DNA of 64,000 nucleotides from Flammula alnicola (taxonomy: Eukaryota > Basidiomycota > Agaricomycetes > Agaricales > Strophariaceae). Each line of letters starts with the position of its first letter. The first letter of the stretch is position 1. The stretch lies in the NCBI GenBank assembly GCA_015499995.1, contig JADNRV010000019.1, forward strand, positions 124,001 through 188,000. Direction: 5' to 3'. The notes beneath the pieces were generated by a model. The model was not told the DNA's origin. It worked only from the letters and a program-made list of their open reading frames with translations, and did no database searches. The position numbers and the translations under genes were made by a program. Shown here piece by piece: positions 5,925-61,047 of the stretch.

Positions 5925-7551
5925 AGTTGAATTTCATTTTTTCTGTGACCACTGACATACATACATAACCATGGAAGTCGAAACTGTCCTGTAACATACC
6001 CTGCCGGTACAGCACCAGTAAAGGCTGAGTGAGTTCCAAAAAACTACAATACAATTTGCAAAGGCTAATGACGAGCGGCAGATATCTGATTTCAACCACA
6101 CTGCAAGTCGTAGCAGATGATGATGCAGCGGAAGGCACGACGACTGGCGACCGCGGACAGCACCGCGACAGACGAGATTCCAAGTCTAATTGGGACTCGA
6201 GGGACTCAAGAGGCCCTTCACGCGGGAAAATGACAAAAGAGCAGAAGAAGGCTCAGCGAGGACAGAATAAGGCTAGGAAATTTGGGAAGATGCGGGATGA
6301 GCTCGATTTATGTTGGAAGGTGGCGAATGGCTCGATATGCGAGTATGCGAACGAGTTGAGTTCTTTACATTATTATGCGTGTCGAGGAGAAAAAGCTGAT
6401 GAATTGCTTCAATAGCTGTCGGTTTACACACGACATTTCTGGATACCTTGCTGCTAAAGCACGCGACATACACATCCCTGAACTCTCAGAAATATCGGAC
6501 TCGCCACCCTTTGCGCCTGACCAGGAATCACTGCGCAAAGCTCACCCAGACCATCCTTCTCTCGACTTGAACACTGTCTGTCCTGTATTCGCCGAAACGG
6601 GGGAATGTAGGTTCGTCAATAATATCCGATTAACGTCTGAAGATCCACTCAGAATTATCTAGATATGGCTTCAAATGTCGATTCTTAGGAGGGCACATTC
6701 GGTTCTCCGAATCTGGAGAACCCTCATTAGTCGGAGACGACGAAAAAAAGGCACGGGCTGCGCTGACAGCCCGAGAAGTGAACTTTGTCGGTCACGACGT
6801 GCGAAAAGCCCTGCGTTCGAAAAAGGTCCGTGTCCTCGTTGCCCACTGTAACCTTACGTCAAGAATAACACGCTCTACTAGTACCCATTCCCCGTTGCCG
6901 ACGAGTACCTCCGCCAACTGGCAGCTGAAAACCCCGAATTGAATAGCAAACCCAAGCCCGTTCCTAATGCCAACTCCATCGTTATCGGTGAACCTGAGCA
7001 AGGAATGGTTGACGTCGAGATGTCAGCCCCTGCACCTCCGCCGCCACCTCCCACAGTACCCGAAGAGAACTCTTTACCCACAAAATCAGCTGTAGATGAA
7101 ATCATCGAGACGCGTACCGGCAATGCTGCGACGACGACAACCCAGGTGGATACACCTGATGTACGGGTCAGATTCCCGGAGAAGAAGAGGTTGCACTGGG
7201 CTGGAAAGACGTGTATGTCGTGTATTCTTTACACTCTATCCAGTGCTGACGTTGTTGAAATTTTGGTTCCTAACAGATCTTGCGCCTTTGACGACCGTCG
7301 GAAACCTCGTAAGCCCATTTCCTCAACCTATGTCAATGCCGCTTATTAAGATACCTACTAGCCATTTCGTCGCCTGTGCGTTGACCTGGGAGCTGATATA
7401 ACCTGTGGAGAGAGTACGTTTCTTCTCTTTACGAATTAGGCGACGCTACTGACATCTCTTTCTCTCGGTCCTCAGTGGGTCTTTCAAGCTCCTTCCTGGC
7501 AGGATCCAAAGAAGAATGGTCTCTCGTTCGTCGACATCCCTCAGAGAGAGT
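5925..7551 (+). pseudogene. Truncated 5' copy of DUS3 (dead)
   Basis: This is a close copy of the first ~1.6 kb of the intact gene at 20342-23219, introns included. It runs from just before the ATG (5973) through exon 7 into exon 8 and stops right after the codons for R-R-H-P-S-E-R. Beyond that point sequence switches abruptly to the direct repeat. A net 10-base loss after the fifth codon shifts the frame and gives a stop at codon 8, so no DUS3 protein can be made. Both zinc-finger segments and the FMN-domain start are still recognisable. The catalytic Cys and everything after it are missing. Similarity is high, so the duplication looks fairly recent. Confidence 0.9.
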
Positions 7552-20341: not shown

Positions 20342-23219
20342 ATGGAAGTCGAAACTCCTGCCCCTGCTCCTGTAACATACCCTGCCGGTACAGCACCAGT
20401 AAAGGCTGAGTGAGTCCCAGAAAATTACAATGCAATTTGCAAAGGCTAATGACGAGCCGCAGGTATCTGATTTCAACCTCACTGCAAGTCGTAGCAGACG
20501 ATGATGCAGCGGAAGGCACGACGACGGGCGACCGCGGACAGCACCGCGACGGACGAGATTCCAAGTCTAATTGGGACTCGAGGGACTCAAGAGGCCCTTC
20601 ACGCGGGAAAATGACAAAAGAGCAGAAGAAGGCTCAGCGAGGACAGAATAAGGCTAGGAGATTTGCGAAGACGCGGGATGAGCTCGACTTGTGTTGGAAG
20701 GTGGCGAATGGCTCAATATGCGAGTACGCGAACGAGTTGAGTTCTTTACATTTTTATCCGTCTCGAGGAGAAAAAGCTGATGAATTGCTTCAATAGCTGT
20801 CGGTTTACACACGACATTTCTGGATACCTTGCTGCTAAAGCACGCGACATACACATCCCTGAACTCTCAGAAATATCGGACTCGCCACCCTTTGCTCCTG
20901 ACCAGGAATCACTGCGCAGAACTCAACCAGACCATCCCTCTCTCGACTTGAACACTGTCTGTCCTGTATTCGCCGAAACGGGGGAATGTAGGTTCGTCAA
21001 TAATATTCGATCAATGTCTGAAGATCCACTCAGAATTACCCAGATATGGCTTCAAATGTCGATTCTTAGGAGGGCACATTCGCTTCTCCGAATCTGGAGA
21101 ACCCTCATTAGTTGGAGACGACGATAAAAAGGCACGAGCTGCGCTGACAGCCCAAGAAGTTAACTTTGTCGGTCCCGACGTGCAAAAAGCCCTGCGTTCG
21201 AAAAAGGTCCGTCTCCTCGTTGCCCATTGTGTCCTTACCTCAAGAATAATACGCTCTACTAGTACCCATTCCCCATCGCCGACGAGTACCTCCGCCAACT
21301 GGCAGCTGAAAACCCCGAATTGAATAGCAAACCCAAGCCCATTCCTAATGCTAACTCCATCGTTATCGGTGAGCCTGAGCAAGAAATGGTTGACGTCGAG
21401 ATGTCAGCTCCTGCACCTCCGCCACCACCTCCTACAGTACCCGAAGAGAACCCTCTACCAACAAAATCAGCTGTAGATGAAATCATCGAGACGCGTACCG
21501 GCAATGTTGCGACGACGACATCCCAGGTGGATACACCTGATGTACGGGTCAGATTCCCGGAGAAGAAGAGGTTACACTGGGCTGGAAAGACGTGTATGTC
21601 GCGCATTCTTTACACTCCTTCTGGTACTGACGTTGTTGAAATTTTTGGTTCATAACAGATCTTGCGCCTTTGACGACCGTCGGAAACCTCGTAAGCCCAT
21701 TTCCTCAACCCATGTCAATGCCGCTTATTAAGATACCTACTAGCCATTTCGTCGCCTGTGCGTTGACCTGGGAGCTGATATAACCTGTGGAGAGAGTACG
21801 TTTCTCTCTTTACGAATTAGGCGACGCTACTGACATCTCTTTCTCTCGGTCCTCAGTGGGTCTTTCCAGCTCCTTCCTAGCAGGATCTAAAGAAGAATGG
21901 TCTCTCGTTCGTCGACATCCCTCAGAGAGAGTTTTCGGTGTTCAAGTCGCTGGCAACAAGCCCGCAAATCTCGTACCTACGGCAGAGGTCCTCGCCAATG
22001 AATGCGGTGCGAATATTGATTTCGTGGACGTGAACTGTGGATGCCCCATTGATTTGGTGTTTAAGAGTGGGAGTGGATCTGCTTGTGCGTCTTTAGTTAG
22101 TGGGAAAGCAGGATATTTATTGACCTTTTACTGATTTCTAGTGCTTGACACCGTCGGAAAACTGGGCAAAATTCTTATTGGGATGAACAGGGCCCTTGGA
22201 GAGATACCCGTGACTGTTAAACTGCGCACTGGGGTCAAAGATGGGAAAAATACAGCGCACAAGCTCATGCCTCGACTGTCGGCGGAATGGAACGTGGGAT
22301 GTGTAACGGTGCGCTTCTCGGTTGCCTGGCTCTCTGTGTTGAGCTTGATCTAATCTCGTCGTCTCTGATCAGCTTCATGGACGGACGAGGCAACAACGAT
22401 ACACTCGACTTGCTGACTGGGATTACATCAAACAATGCGTTGAGGCCGTGCGAGCGCGAGAAGCGGATGAAGATCGTATGTCTCTTTTCTTGTCTCTATG
22501 CTCAATTTCGTTCAATATTGGTCCTAGTGCCTCCTGTACCCATTTTCGGCGGCGGCGATTGTTTCTCCTCATACGACTATTGGACAAACGTCGAGAAGAC
22601 AGGTGTAGACGGTGTGATGATTGGACGAGGGGCTCTTATAAAGCCTTGGATCTTCACAGAGATCAAAGAGCGGAGAGAATGGGATATCAGTGCAAGGGAG
22701 AGGCTGGATCTGATAAGAAAGGTATGTGCTAACTATCGACAGCTTTTGAATGTCTATTGATTTTATTCTTTGTGCATAGTATGCGGAATATGGCTTGAAG
22801 TAAGTCTTTAACACTGTTCCTATCATTTTACCTCCTGACTGATGGCCCATTTTCTAGCCACTTCGGCTCAGATACTGCAGGCGTAAATGCAACTCGAAGA
22901 TACCTCTGCGAAGCTCTATCATTCCAGTATCGATACATACCTATAGGCATTCTCGAGCAACTACCGGGCAGGATCAACGACCGCGCACCTGCTTTCCGCG
23001 GCCGCAATGAGCTGGGTTCGTTCCATTCATTCGTTCGTCTCTTGTTCTGTGTGTAATACTTATCATTCCGTCTTATCAATAGAATCCTTGCTAGCCAGCC
23101 CTGATAGCAACGACTGGGTAAAAGTCTCAGAGATGTTCTTGGGCCCTGCCCCAGAAACATGGAGCTTCACACCGAAGCATAAGAGCAATGCGTATGGGAG
23201 TGAAGAGGGCCAGGGATAG
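20342..23219 (+). CDS. DUS3: tRNA-dihydrouridine synthase 3 (tRNA-dihydrouridine(47) synthase)
   Basis: Fourteen exons join in frame to 706 residues: 20342-20409, 20463-20735, 20797-20991, 21044-21206, 21263-21593, 21659-21690, 21744-21795, 21857-22084, 22142-22308, 22373-22475, 22528-22721, 22780-22799, 22858-23015, 23083-23219. Near residue 110 is a CCCH finger with C-X8-C-X5-C-X3-H spacing; a second with a C-X4-H end follows near 175. The FMN barrel starts with [15 protein letters not shown] and carries the catalytic Cys434 in N-C-G-C-P, then L-H-G-R-T-R and [12 protein letters not shown]. The enzyme reduces uridine 47 in the variable loop of tRNAs with FMN and NADPH. This is the parent of the dead copy at 5925-7551. 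Identification is secure. Confidence 0.97.
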
Positions 23220-29249: not shown

Positions 29250-29680
29250 GACTCTATGTATGTATCTCCTCCAAGACCTTCCAAGAATTGAATTCCCAGT
29301 TTACGCTGAACGTCGTCCTCCACTCAGTGGAAAGTCAGATCTTCACTGGCAGAGCTGATAATCAACCATCAGAATGGTCTGTGCGTAGTGTATTTTGTAA
29401 TTCCGGGCCGCGGTTCGGGATCGCCCGCATGAATTACATTGAGGCGACTATTATCCCCCAGCACTACGGCCTGAAGACACATTTTGTATTTAAATAAATT
29501 CAATGCACGGCCAATATATCATCTGTACAATTTATACATCACAAAAGCAGTTCCAGAGCAAGCAGACAGCAAAAAAATGTATGTAGCGAGATCAAGAAAT
29601 TTGTCAACGAACAAGGCGATCTAGTCCAGGAGGCAACTGGAGGAGAATCAGTAACTATTACTCCGCGATATTGATTTTTG

Positions 29681-32600
29681 TTAGAGGCTCACTGTCCAGT
29701 TGTGTGTCATGGCCGCCCTCTTATATCCAGCAAGAGATTCATCTACACCGTAAGGCCTTCGGAACTGTTAGAAAAACTGCTTCTTCAAAAGTAGAACCCA
29801 ACACACCTATTCCAATCAGTCGATAGGCGGGCGGGCTTTGGCTCAAGATTTGATAATGCGAGTCTAATTTGCATTACAGCAGTTCCGGAAAACCTTGAGA
29901 ATCCATTTTTTTTTTCGAAATGCGCATGTGCGCATGCATACGCGTGATTCCCTTTTTGGGAATGGTTGGATTTGGACATGGGCTGGCGTGGTTTCTCTCT
30001 TACCCCCACCACATGCTGGCCCGTGTTCGTCTCATCTCTTCACAATAAATATATATTCCTTATAACCATATCCCATAATGTCTACCTTATGTGTTCATCA
30101 AAGATAGCTTGCCATCTATAAATGCTCGCGGAGGAAACACTCAACACATCGACGATATCCATGACACCCCAGCCTTTCTCCCAAAGACTAAGTGCACACT
30201 CCTTCAAATCGGCGCTAATATGACGGTAGACCATAGTAATGTTGAGATTGTATATGAATAGAAATGGTGTGATAAGATTGACGGAATAATAGTTGTTGTA
30301 GATGTAGTAAAGAGTGATTATTATACCGAACCGTGTTGAACAAGACACATAAGTAGAATGGCATTGATCGCCAGCCCAAGTTCAAATCCAACCATTCCCG
30401 AAAAGGGAATCACGCGTACGCGTGTGCACATGCGCATTTCGAAAAAAAACTGGATTCTCAAGGTTTTCCGGAACTGCTGTAACACGGCAGATATGCTATA
30501 GGTTCACAGGAGAGTCAGTTTCCGCAGGGATGCAATGCGGATACGATCTTGCCTGTAACTTGGAAGCCACCCTAATTCAAAGTAATTGTAAGGGGTATGG
30601 TAAATCATATAAACCAAGTCAGCTTACCGTCGCTCGTCAAAAGATCCATGCAAATAGAACCTCCTAATAATAAGGAACTTCGGTGAGTAGTGCGCAATGT
30701 CTTACCAGGACGGAATATATATACCTCCCGTAACGTGTCCGCCGCCTCCGTGAATGAAAGGTAGGAACCGTGGGGTTATGATTCTGAAGAAGGGTGGAGA
30801 ATTTGGGAATGTAGGTGGAAATCTTATCTCAAATATGATAGAATTTAAACCCCTGCAGGATGATAAATCAGTGCTGTGCGGAAGGGGAGAGGCGAAAAAC
30901 TGACTTGGCCTTCATATCTTTCGCGAGCGGTAAGTCCTTTTCGAGGGAATGAATTTCGACGATCCATTGATATAAGTTGTCGCCGATAAGTTCTGGAGGC
31001 ATGTACCAACCCAGCTCTCTCAAGCTCGGCGCCGTCTCCTGCTCCTTGAGCATCGACTTGAGCTCTCTCTGAATCGCCATACTTGCCGAGGGAGAGGACT
31101 GGAACGGAGGGAGCATCAGATTCTCTATAGTCTTAGCCACATATTGGGCATTGTGTTTCCAGTCGTCCTTGGGCTTCTTTACGCCCTTGGGTTTGGACGA
31201 CGAGGGAGGAGCGGAAACGCGATAATCGTCTTCATCATCGAGGTCGTAGTGATTAGGTTGCGAGGATGATGATGTCGCCTTCTTCGAGAGATCGAGTTTG
31301 AATATAGCCATATCCTCTTCGTCCGGTTCTTCGTGAACATAATCACCTTTTCGTGCAGAAAGAAGGGTTTCGACCTTGAAAGACGGGTCCGGGATTTCAA
31401 TGACCTTGCCATTCACCATGGTTTGGTGTTTCGGATCTAGCCTCACAAAGGGAACCTTAGGTTGTCGATTAACCGCTTTCTTCCCTTTCGTGTCAACATT
31501 GGATGACGCATCGACGCCGGCGTCCCCAACGCCTCTGACGAGTAAATAACGGCTGCATCAAATGTGGGTCCCAGGGCCACGGCGGGTTGAAACCATTGTG
31601 ACTCACCACATGATCCAGTGTGTGTCTTTAATGACATAATGGGGATCTGAGCTTACGAATTTCTGCGGTCGGTTGACCACTTCGGTCAGGGCCATGCAAT
31701 TCGTCGGGCCTGACAGACTTTTTGCCCATGTCGATCGAGCAGCACCAGCATAGTAGCTCATAGAGGTGCTCGCATCCTTGGCGAGATAAACACCTGTGCT
31801 GAGCTTAAGCGCCTGGCTCGAGCGAAGGAAAACAATTCTGCATACCATCTCCAAATGCTCTTCCATTGGCAACGACTTTGTACCAGAGGCCGTGGCGGAT
31901 TATCTAGGCGCAAATTAATTTCACGGAGGGTCATGGCTGTGCACTGGACTTGCCGAATGCCAATTCCTGAGTGGGGAGCCATGGAAGGCCTTCATTCAAG
32001 GTCAGAGAGATAACTATGCCCCTATCGGAGGCGCCACGTACGTAAATGACAGGATAAGTCTTCACATTCCGATCCTCATTGGCTGCGATATCAAGCGCCT
32101 CCTTGAATTTCGCTTCAGCATCAGGAGCACCAACGGTAAGCCTGAACTGTGTCCAGTTCGGATCTGTAGAAATCATCGTGAGAATACGAGGGAGTGAGGG
32201 GACAAAATTCGAGAATAACCTAATTTCTTGATGAGCTCTTCTCCCGAGTCTATGGCTTCGATGTGTGCAGTACACGACGCGACACACCTGTATCAAGATT
32301 AAAAATGTAAGCGTTTAGACGACCAAGCGAAATTAAGAGATACCATCGAAGGATGGACCACGCGGCGGGAAGAATATTTGGATCGATGTCTTTCAGTTTC
32401 GGCTTCGATTTCCCTGCCTTGACCTTCCTCTCTAGATGTTTCTTCATATCCTCGACCTGGGCGTACACGTTTCAATGCGATTCGTGAGGCAAAAAAATAA
32501 AATTGGATCACCGAAGGTAGAGTATTTATAAGCTTTGCGATGCAAGCTCTCATCTAAGAAAGAGATATATCATCAACACTTCAATGAACGATAGTGACGA

Positions 32601-34854
32601 GAAAATCAAACCTGAGACAGAGTTAAATCGTCAAAATCACATAATCCGTCCGGTCCCGGCACCAGAACTTTTGGAGCTTCAGGAACTACCGCTGGTGCAA
32701 TATTCTGTTGGTTATATGGGTGTGTGTTCGGAGGTTGGGCGTAGGTGGCAGCATTAGAAGATGGGAGCGGAACTCGGAGACCTAAACCTATAGGCAACGG
32801 GTCTTCCATAGCCCCATCAGACGCCGAAACAAATGCAAGGGAAACAAGAAGATCGACAGTTTTCGGGTTATGTATAATTTCGTACTAGATCGAGAATTAG
32901 GTTGGCAACATGGATTGATCAGGAGGACTCACTTCCAGTGAAGGACCCCTATTCAATGAATAGTATTGATACGAGCACAGCTTGGAGTCACACACGTATG
33001 GCTTTAGGGCCTCGTAATCGAAACGAAGCCTATTATGGCAGACGATGCAGTATCTCGTACACAGCTAGAGCATCGATTTGAGCGCAGGCTTGAAAGACCA
33101 TTATTATAAATACTCACCGAAAGACGTCGAACCAAGTAACAGAAAGCAGTCAATGGCAAATTGAAAGGCTCGGTCGAGTTAAGTCCCATAAGAGGGTCGT
33201 GGGGAAGGACAGTGGTACGTGCCAGTTCCCTTTCATCTCGATCAGCTTGTCGAATTTCCTGAGCAAAAGGTTGATTAGCATAAGCCATCATTAAATGTGC
33301 AGCAGCAATTTCAAAGTTTACATTTTCCATCACTGCCAGAACGTCCTCTTCTTTCCTTTGAGATTTCTCCACTTCGGCATTGAGAAACTCTGCTCCAGCC
33401 CATCCAAGCCCGAACTTGCGGCGCAGTTGTACGATTTTGAGGAACGACTGGTCCATCAGGGACTCGAGTGAGCTGCTCAAGCTGAATGGGTCAAATCGGT
33501 CTGGATCTTCAACCTCGGGCACTTCCTCCTCCACAACATCTGGCATTGGTTCGTCCTCGTCATTATCCCCATCGTAGTCGAAAAATTTGGCTTTCTGAGC
33601 TGCTATCTCTGCCTGGATACGTAGTTCATCCTCCGCGTCCGGGATTATAAGTCCATGTTTGCGAACTACCTCCTGCACTTGTTCCATTCTGGGCTTGTAT
33701 TTCTGACTTAACCCGACTTTGAAGGTCAGACCGACGCCTAGTCGTTGCGCAGAAGATGTATACGAGGCATCGTTCTCCAAAGCGGGGTATAACCCATGGA
33801 AGCCACCTATCAACAGGGTGAGGTGTTGCGAACAGGAGAGCAAGCGGCGGTCCCACGCCATCAAGGCGCGAGGAGGAATAGAGTTCGCCAGAGTGATCAT
33901 AGGAAGCGAGATAGAAACGACGAAATCGTTTCCGCCCAGCCGTACAAAGCCGGGCCTGTATTCCGTTGCTACTATATCCACGAAATCCCTGAAGAGTGGA
34001 TAATCAGAAATTTGACAACAATGAGACATGTCGAGATCATTACTGTTGTAATTTTGACATCACGGAGTCAGGCTCGACAGGAGCAGCGCCGATGTCGTCG
34101 TAATCTTCGAAAGGATCGTACCCTTCGCTTTCTGACTGTCCCTCGCCATCTGACTCATCGGTGTCTTCGTGATGAGTGGCAACAGCCTTTGGCGCTGCCG
34201 ATCCAACCACTCTGGCCACTGATGCCGCCAGCTCCGCTATGGTTTCACCCAGGGGTCTCGGAGGCTCTTCTGCAATCTCGTCCACGATTCTTTGCAACTT
34301 GGCGGAGAGATCGCCATCGGGAGAGTAGCAGAACAGTGAGTGACTTCGGGGGTATTCAGACGTGTCTGGAAAAGGCGTGAAATAAGTGTTTGAAAAAGTT
34401 GATCCATCGCCACTTACCTGATATCAATAAGTTGGCTGCGAGAACGTGCTCCGATGAGTCCTTTACTATAATCACCTCGACAGATCCTTCGTCGTCTCCG
34501 GGGCCAATCTCTGTGCGCAAATTAGTCAGATGTTAGTGATAGGCGCTTAACAATACGTGGACTGACTCTGAAGTTTCAACCCGCTGAGGACAAGCCCTGC
34601 TACGCAAGCTTCTTGGATATCTGAGAGATCTGCAGTGAACCGTCTCCGTCCCTTCAAATGAGCGTTTTTGTTGGGGTCATAAGCGTCCATGTTCACGTCC
34701 TCGTCGTCGATATCTTGATGGGATGTAAGCATCAGCACAATATTTACGCGTCGGGACAACGGCGGGACATACCGATACTGATCTTCTGACGCTTCGTAGC
34801 TGGCTTCTCCTGCGATTCTCCATCCCTGTAGGTGGCTCTGGTTGTGCGAGACAT
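29681..34854 (-). CDS. PARP-type ADP-ribosyltransferase fused to a UBC (E2-like) domain, interrupted by a transposon
   Basis: Exons (minus): 34854-34773, 34713-34567, 34510-34418, 34365-34044, 33988-33118, 33064-32933, 32884-32612, 32553-32512, 32456-32344, 32287-32220, 32163-32042, 31989-31954, 31903-31846, 31793-31607, 31552-30905, 30852-30725, 30663-30628, 30571-30553, 30495-30480 resuming 29874-29807, and 29756-29681. Without the insertion this is 1178 codons. A C-x2-C/C-x4-C patch follows L-C-T-R-Y-C. The PARP core has the His in A-F-H-G-S-P-L-R-N-W-H-S and the Tyr in G-D-G-V-Y-L-A. The UBC part shows H-G-G-G-G-H-V-T-G-G-G-S-I-C-M-D-L-L; its Cys (about 1112) matches the E2 active site. 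PARP-UBC fusions are a known fungal clade. A 603 bp element sits after residue ~1131, so read-through adds about 50 foreign residues and loses the last ~47. Two introns start with GC (30552, 31953). Confidence 0.88.
29877..30479. mobile_element. Non-autonomous Tc1/mariner-type element inside the PARP-UBC gene
   Basis: Inverted repeats of about 110 bp begin CAGCAGTTCCGGAAAACC at both ends. TA flanks both sides (29875-29876 and 30480-30481), as expected for Tc1/mariner insertion. Removing the element and one TA restores the UBC reading frame exactly. The interior holds only a remnant of a transposase DNA-binding domain, so the element must have been mobilised in trans. Its ends differ from those of the 3.1 kb element at 12399-15521, which is therefore not the obvious source. 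Confidence 0.9.
30082..30234 (-). pseudogene. Remnant of a Tc1-like transposase N-terminus (helix-turn-helix)
   Basis: From the ATG at 30234 about 50 codons read V-Y-R-H-I-S-A-D-L-K-E-C-A-L-S-L-W and then D-I-V-D-V-L-S-V-S-S-A-S-I-Y-R-W before a stop at 30082. This is the N-terminal helix-turn-helix of an IS630/Tc1-type transposase. The catalytic DDE part is absent. It lies wholly inside the 603 bp element and reads on the same strand as the host gene. Confidence 0.75.
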
Positions 34855-42835: not shown

Positions 42836-44870
42836 GGTCGACGGGATAGAGGAGAGGAGGACGAGGACCATTCCGCCTGTACACCCTTTAATAGAGAATA
42901 GGTTGGGGCTGAAAGAACCACCGGGTTATGTATTAATGGACTATCACTTGATTGAGAGACCATGTGCTCTATGCAGACGCAGGGGAGAACAGGACATTCT
43001 GGCAAACCGCAAGATGTAGTATCATGTCCCAGCATGTCCCGTTCTCTTCACCCACGTGCATCCGAGTATCGTCAGGTCAGGCCAGGTCTTTCAGCTGAAT
43101 GTGGCTTCTTGCGGAGGAACCATCCCATGAACCCCGAATATATCTTGTGGAAGAGGTCACAACGTGGAAATGCAGGCTCAGCCTCAGGCCATATCAGGTC
43201 CATAATCGGATCGTGGAAAGGCTGCGTCGTCAAATAGTGGATTTCGTGGTGATTTTCTGGCTGGTATCAGCAACGGGGATGATGGACATACGAAAGAAGG
43301 AAAGAACCGCCGGCAAAGTTTGTTCCGAAGGTCATTATTGTTTGATGCGGGAGGAAGAAGACAACAAAACCGGCAACCATCGTCGTCACGTTTGTCTTGA
43401 GGCAGAGGATAGCGTGGGCTTTTCAATTTCGGGCCCTCATGCCTCAGGGATCAAAACTGGCCCATTGCTCTTTTATATGTGTATAGAAGCCTCAAATTGT
43501 TGACTGACACGAACATTTCTTATAGCTTTGCCGCGTGTTCACGCGCATTCCAAGCCCGTTCAACAAAGCTCGCTGAGTCGCCTTAATGTTCAAGTTCTCA
43601 TGGTCAGTTTTGCCTTAGTTTTGCCCGTGTGTTTCTGGTAGCCTAGTAGTTGTTTGAGACGAGTGATTACACCTTCTAATTGGAAGATGTACAGGTGTGT
43701 AGAGTCTTTTAGTCAACTTTTCAATTTTTTTAACCGCCTAAGTAAGGCAATGATGTACTCTAAGTAAGTATACCGGCCGAAGAGACCCTATTTCTCAGAC
43801 AACATTGTAGCTCGGAGTCATACTTGACTCTGTCCCGAGTTTGGCTCAAACCTTCTTGTGAGTGACGATTTCTCCCGCCCTGAACCTCTCTGAACTTCAT
43901 CATTCCACACCAGTGAGGCATTTAGTTGCGCGAACACAAGCCATGTACTGTATCTGGCATCATAGATGGAGATCGGTGTCAGGATGCTCTAGGACAGTAC
44001 ATAAGCCCACATATACTCCGAGTCCGCTTTTACTGGGGCCTATATACCTTCTTTCTTGCCACAAAAAGGTTTGTTTAATGGAGACTTGCTCACAGACTAA
44101 CTCACCTCAGACCATTCAAAGCCTTCTTAGTACGCCGAATCGTCTCAGGTTTAAATTTCATCTTTATCCACAACGAGCTCCCTTCAAATTTTCCGAAGAC
44201 TTCTAGAAACTTCTCTGTACTGATTGAGGTCGGTGACCAACTCTCCGACCAACGTTATTGAAAAGTTACTTGGACAAACTTGAACAGGTTTCACGCCTTG
44301 GGAATTCGTGCCTCCATCATAAACGATCATCGACGAAAAAAAAGTAATTATATTCCTGGACAAAAGAGTAGTTAAAGCGCCAGATCGACGATTTCATCCT
44401 TCTTGGTGATGCAACCTTCCTTCGTTCATGGCAGTTATGGTCATGACCTGCCAGTACTTATTGCTATTTTTAGATCGGAAGGGATTCATTACATCTTCTG
44501 CCTTGAAGACCTTTCCTGGCTCAATTCAATGCTCTGCTGGCATTGTTAACAGGCGACTACATGCACGTATTGTAATCGATTTATTAACATAACTCGACTG
44601 GTAATATTATCCCGGAGAGTCCATTTCTACCACTGGCTCTCTCAGCGCGCTAATTGCCAGACGACAAACGGAATCACCTCGTAAGTTATGCACGATATTC
44701 CTCTAGAAAAGTTCAGACTACTGAAGGCGGCCACCGAGAGCATTTGATCATGTACTAAGTGGTGCTTAGTTCGTCCTGGGTTGTGCGGCAGTGCCCCAAA
44801 TATCATCATCTCAGATTATGTTGACCGAAGGGAGACTGAAAGCTTGGTAAAAGCTGCCGTTTTTTTCGCT
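42836..44870. other. Gene-free stretch of about 2 kb
   Basis: Upstream of the GPI-type phosphodiesterase gene. Frames at 42962-43503 and 43862-44206 have no domains or splice support and are not supported as genes. Confidence 0.4.
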
Positions 44871-45059
44871 GATTTTATCGCTGGTCTTGGATTCCAAGGT
44901 CACTTCTGTAATATTATCTCTCATAATGAAATAAGTCCACATGTTATTATTTCATTATGAGAGATAATATTACAGAAGTGACCTTGGAATCCAAGACCAG
45001 CGATAAAATCCGCTTATTTCATTATGAGAGATAATATTACAGAAGTGACCTTGGAATCC
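44871..45059. repeat. Perfect 64 bp palindrome with 12-base loop, plus a third partial copy
   Basis: The left arm (44871-44934) and the right arm (44947-45010) are perfect reverse complements over 64 bases, separated by a 12-base spacer. A third copy at 45014-45059 repeats the first 46 bases of the right arm, in the same orientation. The arms show no coding sense. The structure would fold into a very stable hairpin as DNA or RNA. It lies about 360 bases upstream of the phosphodiesterase gene starting at 45421. Confidence 0.95.
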
Positions 45060-55872: not shown

Positions 55873-56693
55873 ATGTATAGACTAGGCTTACGTCTCAAGC
55901 TCAAATCCTCATTGGTACCCGACACCATCATCGTCCTATTTCTTGGAACCTACGTATCCATTCAATGTTCTGTTTTGTTGCTTCCATATTTATATTTATC
56001 CATTTTTTGGTCCTTTTATTCTGTTGTCTTCGACTCCGTGTAGTTGACTCCGTGTAGATACTTGGTAGAATATTGCTCTCGATGCTACATGCACATTGCT
56101 ATTGGTAATACTATTAGTAGTAGGCCGTCTATCTTTAACTTATCACATATATGACCCACTTTTCGGAACATGCCTCATGTGCATACGAGCACCGCCCCTT
56201 TTTTTTTTTTTTTTTTTTTTGGAATCCCGTTTATAGTCATTTTCGGGGCGAACCCCATGTAGACTACTCACAGCCGGCCTGTACCTAATGTAGATAGACA
56301 ACCCCCAGCTACCCCAACCCATGTAGGCGGCAACTTAATCCCCCTTTCCGAACCTTACGGCCGGTCTGGCAGAAGGAGTCGGCCAATGAAGCTATCTACC
56401 CCGGGCGCACTCCTGCGCTATATATGAGTAAATAACAGTTACTACTTTAAGCGAGAGTAATGCGTAGCAAATGCTTTTCTCTGATCTTCTTTTCCTTCAT
56501 ATCACTTCTAAGTTCTCTGTGGTTAGACTATGTGAGGCGCGCGCTTTTCAGTGTGGTCATAATGTGCACCGGTAAGGAAGGTTCGACTCTCGAGTCATCT
56601 TGCGTAGTCCAAAAATAGACGTATATAGGTCCACATTGACATGTGTATTGGCACACGCAACCATCATTCGTTTCTTGACTTGTAATATCGACC
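55873..56693. other. Intergenic stretch with a poly-T run
   Basis: A homopolymer of about 22 T lies at 56199-56220. The last ~110 bases before 56694 match the region upstream of the second methyltransferase gene (59624-59706), so they are duplicated promoter sequence. Confidence 0.6.
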
Positions 56694-57580
56694 ATGAAAT
56701 TGTCCAACGCGCTCAGTTTCCCCTCAGGTGTCTGGTTTGGACTTACAGTGGCATTGATGCCGACTCTCAGAGCCATCATGGCCAGCCCAACTCTTTTATT
56801 TAAACCTCGTGCTCTGTCTCGTGTATATATGGCTAATCTCTGGCCGATTTACGCAGACGGCATGGACGAAAACGCGAAAGACACGAAAAGCGCCTTGATC
56901 ACACCCCATGCGTACGGGGTCGTGCTCGATATTGGTGCAGGTGAGGATTTACTTCATATCGTCTCCAAAAACAATTATTGAAGAAAATGACAGGCCATGG
57001 ACATACCGTGCGATACCTCGACGCCGACCGCGTCTCGCGATATATAGCCCTCGAGCCCAATGCCCTTATGCATCCGCAAATCCGGGCCCAGGCAAACGCA
57101 GCAGGATTCCACGAAGCGGATGGCACTCTGGTCATCCTCGCGTGCGGTGCAGAGGACACCAAATCCATCATCTCTGCACTCGCCCTCGCGCTCCCGACGT
57201 CTGAATCATCGACTCTCCCGTCCGTGGACACGCTTGTGTCGGCCCTAGCACTATGCACAGTCCCTGAGCCTCAGCGGACCATCTCCAATCTCGTGCGCGA
57301 CGTCCTTAAGTCCGGTGGCCAGTTCCTGATGTATGAGCATGTCCTAAGCCCGCGGGAGGACGTGGCCTGGTGGCAGCGGTTCTGGGCGCCATTGTGGTCT
57401 CTTGGGTTTGATGGGTGTAGGATTGATAGATGCACGGACGTCTGGGTTAAGGAGCTGAAGGTGGATGGCGAAGGAGGACAGAAACAAAGTGCGTGGAGAG
57501 AGTCCAGAACATGGGTAGTGGAGGGTCAGGAAGAGGAGAATTTTTTTTTTTGGGTCGTTGGGAGATTTGACAAGCAGTAA
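56694..57580 (+). CDS. METTL7-like SAM-dependent methyltransferase, copy 1
   Basis: Two exons, 56694-56940 and 56994-57580, give 277 residues. A hydrophobic N-terminal region is followed by the SAM-binding motif V-L-D-I-G-A-G, completed across the intron by H-G-H-T-V-R-Y-L. Then come A-L-E-P-N-A-L-M-H-P and the METTL7-type end G-G-Q-F-L-M-Y-E-H-V-L with W-W-Q-R-F-W-A-P-L-W and G-C. Members are membrane-associated methyltransferases; the human ones act on thiols. The substrate here is unknown. The run F-F-F-W near the C-terminus comes from a T-tract and differs from the paralogue. Confidence 0.88.
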
Positions 57581-57713
57581 AGTATTCTGCGAGGATTCGG
57601 GAATTAGGACTCAGGAAGGTTTGAACATACCAAGGAATATTATTTTCTGTTTTTAATGAATCGTGGTCATCCAGAACCCGAGAGGAGAGGGGGTCATTCA
57701 ATAAGATGATTCT

Positions 57714-59160: not shown

Positions 59161-59706
59161 CATATTTCGACTTCCGGCAACATTGTTGGGGAGGTTATGA
59201 AGTGACTTTCTCTTTTTTTTAGAGTATCCCTGGAATATGAACTGATTTCATTGTCAGTCTCCTCCCATTTTTTGCATTCCGAGAATACCTTTACGCAACG
59301 TTGGGTGTGGTTCTCATGAGCAAATGCCAGGCTTCAAGCTTGAGCGCCGCCATTTTTCGACTTCTGGAAATGCTGCGGTGACGGCTTATTTTCCCAGTAA
59401 GTTCCTTTCTTCTGAATATCGAGGGATACAGAGATGAATTTATCATTAGCCTTCTACTTGTATGACAATGCCTTGCTACGACGTCAACTCCGGGATATCA
59501 GCTAAGGTTGTCGGTAGAATATCGCCGTGCACACGTAGACAAGTAACAGATTTGCAAAAATGTACTTATGTCCTTCCATTCCGTGATTCTCGCATCTTTC
59601 TGAGTTTCTTGTCGGCGGCGCTCATCTTGCGAAGTCCCAAAATAGACGTGCCAAATTCCAATTGCACACACAGCCATCATTCGTTTCTTGACTTGTAATA
59701 TCGACC
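59161..59706. other. Intergenic stretch before methyltransferase copy 2
   Basis: Contains a duplicated ~80 bp promoter-proximal block (59624-59706) shared with 56583-56693, and diverged P-F-F-D-F type coding-like scraps near 59349. No gene is supported. Confidence 0.45.
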
Positions 59707-60600
59707 ATGAAATTGTCCAACGCGTTCAGTCTCCTCACAGACCTCCGATTTGGACTTGCAGTGGCATGGATGCCGACTCTCAAAGCCATCCTAGCCAGTC
59801 CAACACTTTTATTCAGACCTCATGCTCTGTCTCGTGTATATATGGCTAATCTCTGGCTGACTTTCGGAGATGGCGTCGACGGAAACGGGAAAGACACGAA
59901 AAATGCCTTGATCACACCCCATGCGTACGGGGTCGTGCTCGATATTGGTGCAGGTGAGGATTTACTTCGTGTCGTCTAGCAAAAAAGTATTTTATTGAAG
60001 AAAATGACAGGCCATGGGCATACCGTGCGATACCTCAATGCCGAGCGCGTCTCGCGATACATAGCCCTCGAGCCCAATGCCCTTATGCATCCGCAAATCC
60101 GGGCCCAGGCAAACGCAGCAGGATTCCACGAAGCGGATGGCACCCTGATCATCCTCGCGTGCGGTGCAGAGGATACCAAGTCCATCCTCTCCGCACTCGC
60201 CCTGGCGCTCCCGGCCGCTGAGTCATCTCCAACTGTTCCCCCCGTGGACACACTTGTGTCGATCCTGACACTATGCACAATCCCTGAGCCCCAGCGGACC
60301 ATATCCAATCTCGTGCGCGATGTCCTTAAACCCGGTGGTCAGTTCCTGATGTATGAGCATGTCCTGAGCCAGCGGGAGGACGTGGCCTGGTGGCAGCGGT
60401 TCTGGGCGCCATTGTGGTCTCTTGGGTTTGATGGGTGTAGGATGGATAGACCATCGGATGTCTGGGTTACGGAGCTGAAGGTGGAAAGTGAAGGAGGAGA
60501 GAAACAAAGCGCGTGGAGGGAGTCCAGAACATGGCTAAAGGAGGGCGAGGAAGAGGAGAATTTGTTCTTCCACAGCGTTGGGAGATTTGTCAAGCAGTAA
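59707..60600 (+). CDS. METTL7-like SAM-dependent methyltransferase, copy 2
   Basis: Exons 59707-59953 and 60011-60600 give 278 residues. It is a close tandem paralogue of the gene at 56694-57580, with the intron at the same codon of the SAM motif. All motifs are kept: V-L-D-I-G-A-G, A-L-E-P-N-A-L-M-H-P, G-G-Q-F-L-M-Y-E-H-V-L and W-W-Q-R-F-W-A-P-L-W. Differences cluster in the N-terminus and the acidic C-terminus (K-E-G-E-E-E-E-N). The similarity includes about 80 bases of upstream sequence and some 3' sequence, so the duplication unit was about 1.1 kb. Confidence 0.88.
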
Positions 60601-61047
60601 AACTTCCTGCAGGGAATTAAGACGCGGGAAGGTTTTAAGAAGATACCAAGGAATATTGTTTTCTGTTTTTTTAGTGAACTGTGATTTCCAAGACTAGAGA
60701 GGAGAAGTCGTCCACTGACGACTTCACGGAGAGGTGAAAACAAGCCACTGGCACGGGCCGTTGGAACTAGAGTCGTGTTTGTCCACCAAACTTTTGTCGC
60801 CTGACACCTAGTCTCTTGCAAATACTCAAACGGGTAGAACGACAAGATGTATTGAATACTTCATGCTTCAAGCCATCAGGGGTACTTGTGTATTCATCCA
60901 AAATCTCAGCTACTTAATCCCAGGGAGTAAGTACATATTAGGATCAAAAATTGTCAAATTTCAGAATGCTCTGGCAGTACTACATAAGTCATTTCAAATC
61001 CTGATGCATGATGAGGCGCGCAACAAAAAGCAGAAGGTATAATTCAA
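60601..61047. other. Convergent intergenic stretch
   Basis: Lies between the 3' ends of methyltransferase copy 2 and the next minus-strand gene. The first ~90 bases resemble the 3' flank of copy 1; nothing else was recognised. Confidence 0.4.

Follow-up and report, generated by a model that had tools for sequence, protein, structure and literature searches.

A Tc1-type deletion derivative interrupts the UBC domain of a PARP-UBC gene on one of two matching contigs of Flammula alnicola

A PARP-UBC gene of Flammula alnicola, which we take to be the same fungus as Pholiota alnicola, is split inside its UBC domain by a 603-bp non-autonomous Tc1-type element, and an uninterrupted copy of the gene lies on a second contig, C86, of the same assembly. 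The window, as the whole analysed stretch of 64,000 nucleotides is called here, comprises positions 124001-188000 of contig C101 in an assembly of 74.4 Mb and 861 contigs. In the account proposed here, this non-autonomous member of an active family would have been mobilized in trans by the transposase of a full-length relative and would have landed at a TTAA target on one of two F. alnicola haplotypes, splitting the helix at residues 1106-1118 of the UBC domain in a PARP-UBC gene of the clade 6A type. The interrupted allele would give no useful protein, whether through nonsense-mediated decay or through an unfolded end of the UBC domain, and the intact allele would conceal this loss in the dikaryon. 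The deposited gene model, which lacks the element, would reflect intact-allele transcripts aligned to the interrupted contig. Taken as a whole, this account is assigned a probability of about 85%.

The coding span of the host gene (29604..34854, minus strand) corresponds to the deposited protein P0001 (1164 aa, BDZ97DRAFT_1798782); its end at 29604 was counted from the exon start at 29636 plus the last 11 codons. With the element left out, a chain of 20 exons was built from splice signals and reading frame. Removing the element and one TA restored a frame of 1178 codons in this chain, as had been claimed in the original prediction, with 1131 codons before the insertion point. P0001 corrects the chain by an extra 63-nt in-frame GT-AG intron (33259..33321, minus strand), which the 1178-codon count reads through, and by an extra last exon (29636-29604). 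Just upstream of the interrupted exon is a GC-AG intron (GCAAG..TATAG; 30496..30552, minus strand) that agrees with the deposited protein, and a second GC-AG intron of the gene lies at 31953-31904. The other introns measure 48-63 nt as placed; GT-AG and GC-AG were the only borders searched, and all introns could be placed with them.

P0001 matches two Pfam families above their cut-offs, PF00644 (residues 726-781) and PF00179, and its residues 662-809 match PARP16. The nearest solved structures are 1zuo and UBE2Q1 (2qgx) for the UBC domain and PARP16 for the PARP core. Most of the catalytic core (about residues 634-827 of P0001, by the PF00644 and PARP16 matches) is encoded by the exons at 31607..32456 on the minus strand, and the codon of the presumed E2 active-site cysteine, C1091, occupies 30650..30652 on the same strand. 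Both therefore lie upstream of the insertion, in line with what had been predicted. C1091 is invariant in 44 of 44 rows of an alignment, A1, that comprises P0001 and 43 selected homologues (257 were found, and the selection was made among the 120 listed).

The element spans 29877..30479 and is assigned to the minus strand, that of the host gene, according to its remnant transposase open reading frame. It is flanked by the two copies of a TA target duplication (29875..29876 and 30480..30481; target TTAA). Its terminal inverted repeats, about 112 bp long (left, 29877..29988; right, 30369..30479), match perfectly over the terminal 29 bp and are about 93% identical overall. The interrupted exon (29807..30495, minus strand) measures 689 nt in C101 and 84 nt in C86 (79955-80038). 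The insertion point falls inside a TTA codon of this exon, ...GTG T(TA-element-TA)ATG..., and past the element the host sequence picks up again in frame as MQIRLALSN. An empty site with a single TA is present in the same assembly on C86, which reads ...GCAT-TA-ACACGG..., compared to ...GCAT-TA-element-TA-ACACGG... in C101. A search of that assembly matched the flanks of the element to C86 at 98-100% over 2019 and 1275 bases. The inverted repeats, the TA on each side, and the empty site bear out the predicted Tc1/mariner-type insertion in a TTA codon of the UBC domain; left out of that prediction were the origin of the element as a deletion derivative and its heterozygosity, with the other haplotype intact.

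To the left of the insertion, C101 and C86 show 4 differences over 876 aligned bases, and to its right 64 differences over about 4,717 bases plus 7 gap positions. The C86 frame, with exon borders transferred by alignment, is uninterrupted over 1177 codons. Divergence between the alleles upstream of the insertion (dS 0.031, dN 0.0043, ratio 0.14; 1129 of 1131 codons, with two gapped ones omitted) indicates that both were constrained until recently. In the 19.8 kb of C86 that were read, colinearity with the window is maintained, and near the left end of the window C86 matches again at a lower identity of 85-89%. Two of three RPB2-type loci were paired by near-equal search scores rather than by sequence comparison (C387/C57 and C90/C2), and the third (C112, C680) gave no clean pair. 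The words "dikaryon" and "haplotype" do not occur in the main text of the genome paper (PMC8480192). From the long colinearity and the RPB2-type pairs, we infer that C101 and C86 represent two haplotypes of a dikaryon, carried in different nuclei; a segmental duplication is formally still an alternative to two haplotypes.

Eleven amino-acid differences separate the alleles before the insertion, and none of them falls at H737 or Y768 of P0001, PARP-type residues that we presume to be catalytic. At five differing sites, at least four of five outgroup proteins agree and one allele matches them, and C101 carries the derived residue at all five (residues 90, 315, 331, 639, and 836 of the 1178-codon chain, which are 90, 315, 331, 618, and 815 of P0001). 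This bias (two-sided sign test, about 0.06) gives a weak hint that constraint on the interrupted allele has been relaxed. Two observations run counter to that hint: at a sixth site of this kind, 828, neither allele has the outgroup residue, and at 160-161 it is C86 that carries the derived state, an in-frame codon loss.

Across the insertion, P0001 reads ...SISAVL-MQIRL..., leaving out exactly the element and one TA, and at allele differences it has the residues of C101 (e.g., I90 and two valines at 160-161). In a database clustered at 90%, P0001 is the sole member of its cluster, which suggests that the protein of C86 itself is missing from that database. The genome paper, in the parts available, lists Pholiota alnicola AH 47727 and describes the use of RNA-seq to improve annotation (PMC8480192). 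The skipped element is probably explained by C86 transcripts placed on C101, where a C86 transcript would look exactly like the deposited model. True removal of the element by splicing, at atypical intron borders and with a working allele as the outcome, would equally produce the P0001 junction and is what the deposited model literally says, in an annotation that drew on RNA-seq in general; it is nevertheless improbable. Among the frame-keeping introns longer than 500 nt inside the interrupted exon, only three yield P0001, all of 605 nt and with borders TA..TG, AC..GT, or CA..TA; spliceosomal borders (GT-AG, GC-AG, or AT-AC) were not found for this gap, so a spliceosomal intron is unlikely. 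GT-AG splicing that gives P0001 was rejected, as no such case occurs among the introns of more than 500 nt inside this exon. Also against true splicing, the other introns of the gene were all placed with one of the two kinds of border searched, and the intact C86 allele, for which the database holds no protein of its own, would give an identical mRNA without any splicing of the element. Canonical GT-AG splicing within the element, which would keep the frame and add element-derived residues inside the UBC domain, could draw on 66 frame-keeping pairs of sites at least 40 nt apart in the interrupted exon. However, in the best 12 of the 66 pairs the donors have four of six consensus bases, a branch-like motif is absent, and the introns would measure 383-584 nt instead of the 48-63 nt of the others, which makes such splicing highly improbable. 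Finally, repeats can be misplaced during assembly, but a misassembly that put the element into the PARP-UBC gene is scarcely credible and was rejected given the perfect TA duplication, the divergence of about 5-6% between the element and the closest copies found, and the same pattern of filled and empty sites at four other loci.

The remaining alternative concerns the product of the interrupted allele. In the AlphaFold model of P0001 (mean pLDDT 76.7; 76 and 78 for the ten-residue blocks flanking the break), the break lies between L1110 and M1111, inside the helix 1106-1118 and past the presumed cysteine C1091. All 44 rows of A1 have residues on either side of this position and none between them, and the possibility that homologues carry the element sequence there was rejected (0 of 44 rows). 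The 54 residues downstream of the break, including 13 columns invariant in the 44 rows, are lost from the interrupted frame. Read-through into the element gives instead a 52-residue tail that ends at a TAA stop (30321..30323, minus strand), downstream of which lie another 514 nt of its exon and two further exon junctions. Under the exon-junction rule, a premature stop upstream of junctions marks an mRNA for decay, and the transcript of the interrupted allele is thus a predicted decay substrate. The likely product named in the original prediction was a PARP truncated in its UBC domain and extended by a tail of about 50 element-derived residues. The tail is indeed encoded, and an open frame for 52 codons into the element, a PARP core and presumed E2 cysteine upstream of the break, and unchanged H737 and Y768 would all be compatible with a stable, functional protein of this kind; yet such a protein is unlikely in view of the decay-prone position of the stop, the broken helix, the lost invariant columns, a deposited model that omits the element, and the weak hint of relaxed constraint on C101. 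Most likely, one allele is lost or weak and is sheltered by the other, which is good.

The origin of the element can be read from its relatives. A genome search with the element returned at least 39 matching stretches, among them a relative of 3362 bp on contig C89 (L013 1343-4704) with terminal inverted repeats that are 95.5% identical. The 603-bp element corresponds to positions 1-213 and the last 388 bp of this parent, each at about 95% identity, and comparison with the C89 copy and a further copy on C395 places the internal deletion junction, at which about 2.77 kb of the parent is gone, at 30086..30093. As in a MITE-like deletion derivative, both ends have been kept and the element's own transposase has been lost, leaving a 50-codon remnant of the transposase N-terminus (30082..30234, minus strand) with a stop just past the junction; the ends common to derivative and parent are the basis for proposing mobilization in trans. 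The C395 copy has the same deletion junction, apart from 3 nt, at a different locus, and hence the deleted form must have moved at least once after it arose. At least two copies of the derivative (C101 and C395) were found, and overall identity between the 603-bp element and its relatives on C89 and C395 is about 94-95%. The C395 copy also contains an insert of about 320 bp (L014 about 1434-1746) with inverted, TACCCG-rich ends.

The C89 transposase is divided into at least four pieces, and it is apparently complete in the sense that all its parts are open. When pieces 2 and 3 are spliced together, the second D and the E are separated by 34 residues, the DD34E signature. Single transposase exons score 21.7 and 21.4 bits against Pfam DDE_3, below the curated cut-off of 28.6. 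The transposase is matched by 285 database proteins; among the 120 listed, many contain PF13358, the name transposase is common, and two entries are called Tc1-like transposase. For an ascomycete, introns in transposases are treated in an earlier study (PMC4188875).

Recent mobility of the family was assessed from six sampled copies (C101, C395, C89, C88, C279, and C204), with shorter or more distant matches left out except for those on C9 and C334. T-TA ... TA-A borders, corresponding to the target TTAA, are present in all six. In each of the five copies for which the counterpart was read, the other haplotype is empty and has one TTAA (C101/C86, C89/C28, C279/C136, C204/C23, and C88/C17, with additional matches of the C88 flank to two other contigs at 89%), indicating that the family moved recently. 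The flank of the sixth copy, C395, is in part a repeat. The copies on C88, C279, and C204 are 99.1-99.6% identical to each other, and their flanks do not match one another. What was observed of any cut-and-paste activity is this insertion polymorphism.

Further repeats occur elsewhere in the window. Two direct repeats were noted, one of 1.57 kb (5984-7551 and 20364-21932; 95% identical, 14 kb apart), both copies of which are matched by the start of the C86 stretch, and one of 1.0 kb (56647-57654 and 59661-60670; 88% identical). A repeat at 551-1208 has inverted ends (551-584 and 991-1024) and relatives on many contigs; the C86 haplotype, with matches to 1-488 and 1256-2000 on the two sides, seemingly lacks it. 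About 145 bp at 44868-45013 match their own reverse complement at 95% and perhaps represent another small transposon.

The four full-length relatives (C89, C88, C279, and C204; about 3.36-3.42 kb) carry a second spliced gene, ORF2, on the strand opposite the transposase (L013 1543-3254 in C89; also in L015, L016, L017, L069, and L070). ORF2 of C89 was deposited as protein P0121 (499 aa), and predicted splicing reproduced that sequence exactly. In a third lineage, the C334 ORF2 is P0122 (486 aa) and lies beside a transposase, P0138, on the same contig of 1,063,677 bases. Matches to ORF2 in the genome are on C89, C88, C279, C204, C334, and C484, with a short piece on C9; three lineages in the F. 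alnicola genome have the gene. Transposase exon 1 was not found in the 5.6 kb read of C484, and neither C334 nor C484 has inverted repeats of its own at the threshold used, which suggests that the third lineage has partly decayed.

Comparison of C89 with C88, C279, C204, C334, and C484 gave dN/dS values for ORF2 of 0.129, 0.130, 0.129, 0.124, and 0.153, ratios that are rough because dS is near saturation (1.5-2.7) and some copies have broken frames. For transposase exon 1, the values against C88, C279, C204, and C334 were 0.134, 0.148, 0.134, and 0.092. Purifying selection on ORF2 is thus about as strong as that on the transposase, which argues for a gene of the transposon rather than passing cargo. 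Searches with ORF2 gave nothing above cut-off in Pfam (a sub-threshold match to MAGE_N only), no match in the PDB with a profile at E values up to 1, and no relatives among 46 pattern matches in viral contigs. Among the 7996 best database candidates scored, those sharing most words, the relatives of ORF2 were two proteins, both from F. alnicola, a procedure that may miss distant relatives. The AlphaFold model of ORF2, from an alignment of two rows, has a mean pLDDT of 40 and is unusable. In other transposon superfamilies, second open reading frames act as accessory transposition factors. By analogy, the parent could tentatively be viewed as a two-gene Tc1 transposon, in which a DD34E transposase is joined by ORF2 (486-499 residues; relatives found only in this species among the candidates scored) as an accessory factor that may serve in DNA binding, choice of the TTAA target, or counter-silencing; this view is about as easily doubted as held. 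Among the literature matches listed, titles and the opening lines of abstracts contain no description of a two-ORF fungal Tc1/mariner element.

As biology, the insertion itself is unremarkable: a heterozygous, recent, non-autonomous Tc1 insertion. What raises its interest is an allele hidden by the gene model and a parent family with two genes. A PARP-ubiquitin fusion gene with a heterozygous transposon allele is useful, as the intact allele for comparison is in the same assembly. More generally, the case cautions that, where an assembly contains two haplotypes, an allele of this kind may be concealed in a public gene model as an apparent "intron". With copies present in one haplotype only, an apparently complete transposase, a mobile deletion derivative, and a conserved second gene, the family offers a direct way to ask whether Tc1 transposition requires an accessory protein.

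Tc1 insertions in exons of Caenorhabditis elegans are reportedly removed at the RNA level via cryptic splice sites. The F. alnicola case resembles these in having an element in an exon and a deposited product without it; it differs in that the C. elegans insertions are said to use cryptic sites, whereas here the fitting borders are non-GT-AG and an empty allele explains the model. Text on such spliced insertions was not found in the literature searched, including the accessible part of PMC9635669. The host protein has the layout given for clade 6A PARPs of fungi in the available text of Citarelli et al. 2010, a PARP core and, C-terminal to it, a UBCc domain that has an active-site cysteine (PMC2964712); the domains tested show no difference from that clade, and what sets the present gene apart is that one of its alleles is interrupted.

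With the Tc1 DD34E group of Tc1/mariner (IS630-Tc1-mariner) elements, the parent shares the TA duplication, long terminal inverted repeats, and a transposase with HTH-like and DDE_3-like parts. It differs from this group in its length of 3.36 kb, in the second conserved gene in opposite orientation, and, as a family, in the target TTAA at six of the six copies looked at. The Tec and TBE elements of ciliates are, in the passages available, likewise Tc1/mariner elements with several open reading frames, one of which is in the complement in Tec; among the extra frames, Tec has one for a recombinase, while TBE has one for a zinc-finger protein as well as a small ORF (PMC7325037). ORF2 is set apart from these by their description, since it has neither a Pfam family above cut-off nor a match among solved structures. 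Tc1-OP1 of the yeast Ogataea, as far as the accessible text describes it, is another fungal Tc1 element with protein beyond the transposase. In Tc1-OP1, this takes the form of a "domainX" within one 1155-aa protein (PMC9977792), whereas the parent family in F. alnicola has two separate genes on opposite strands.
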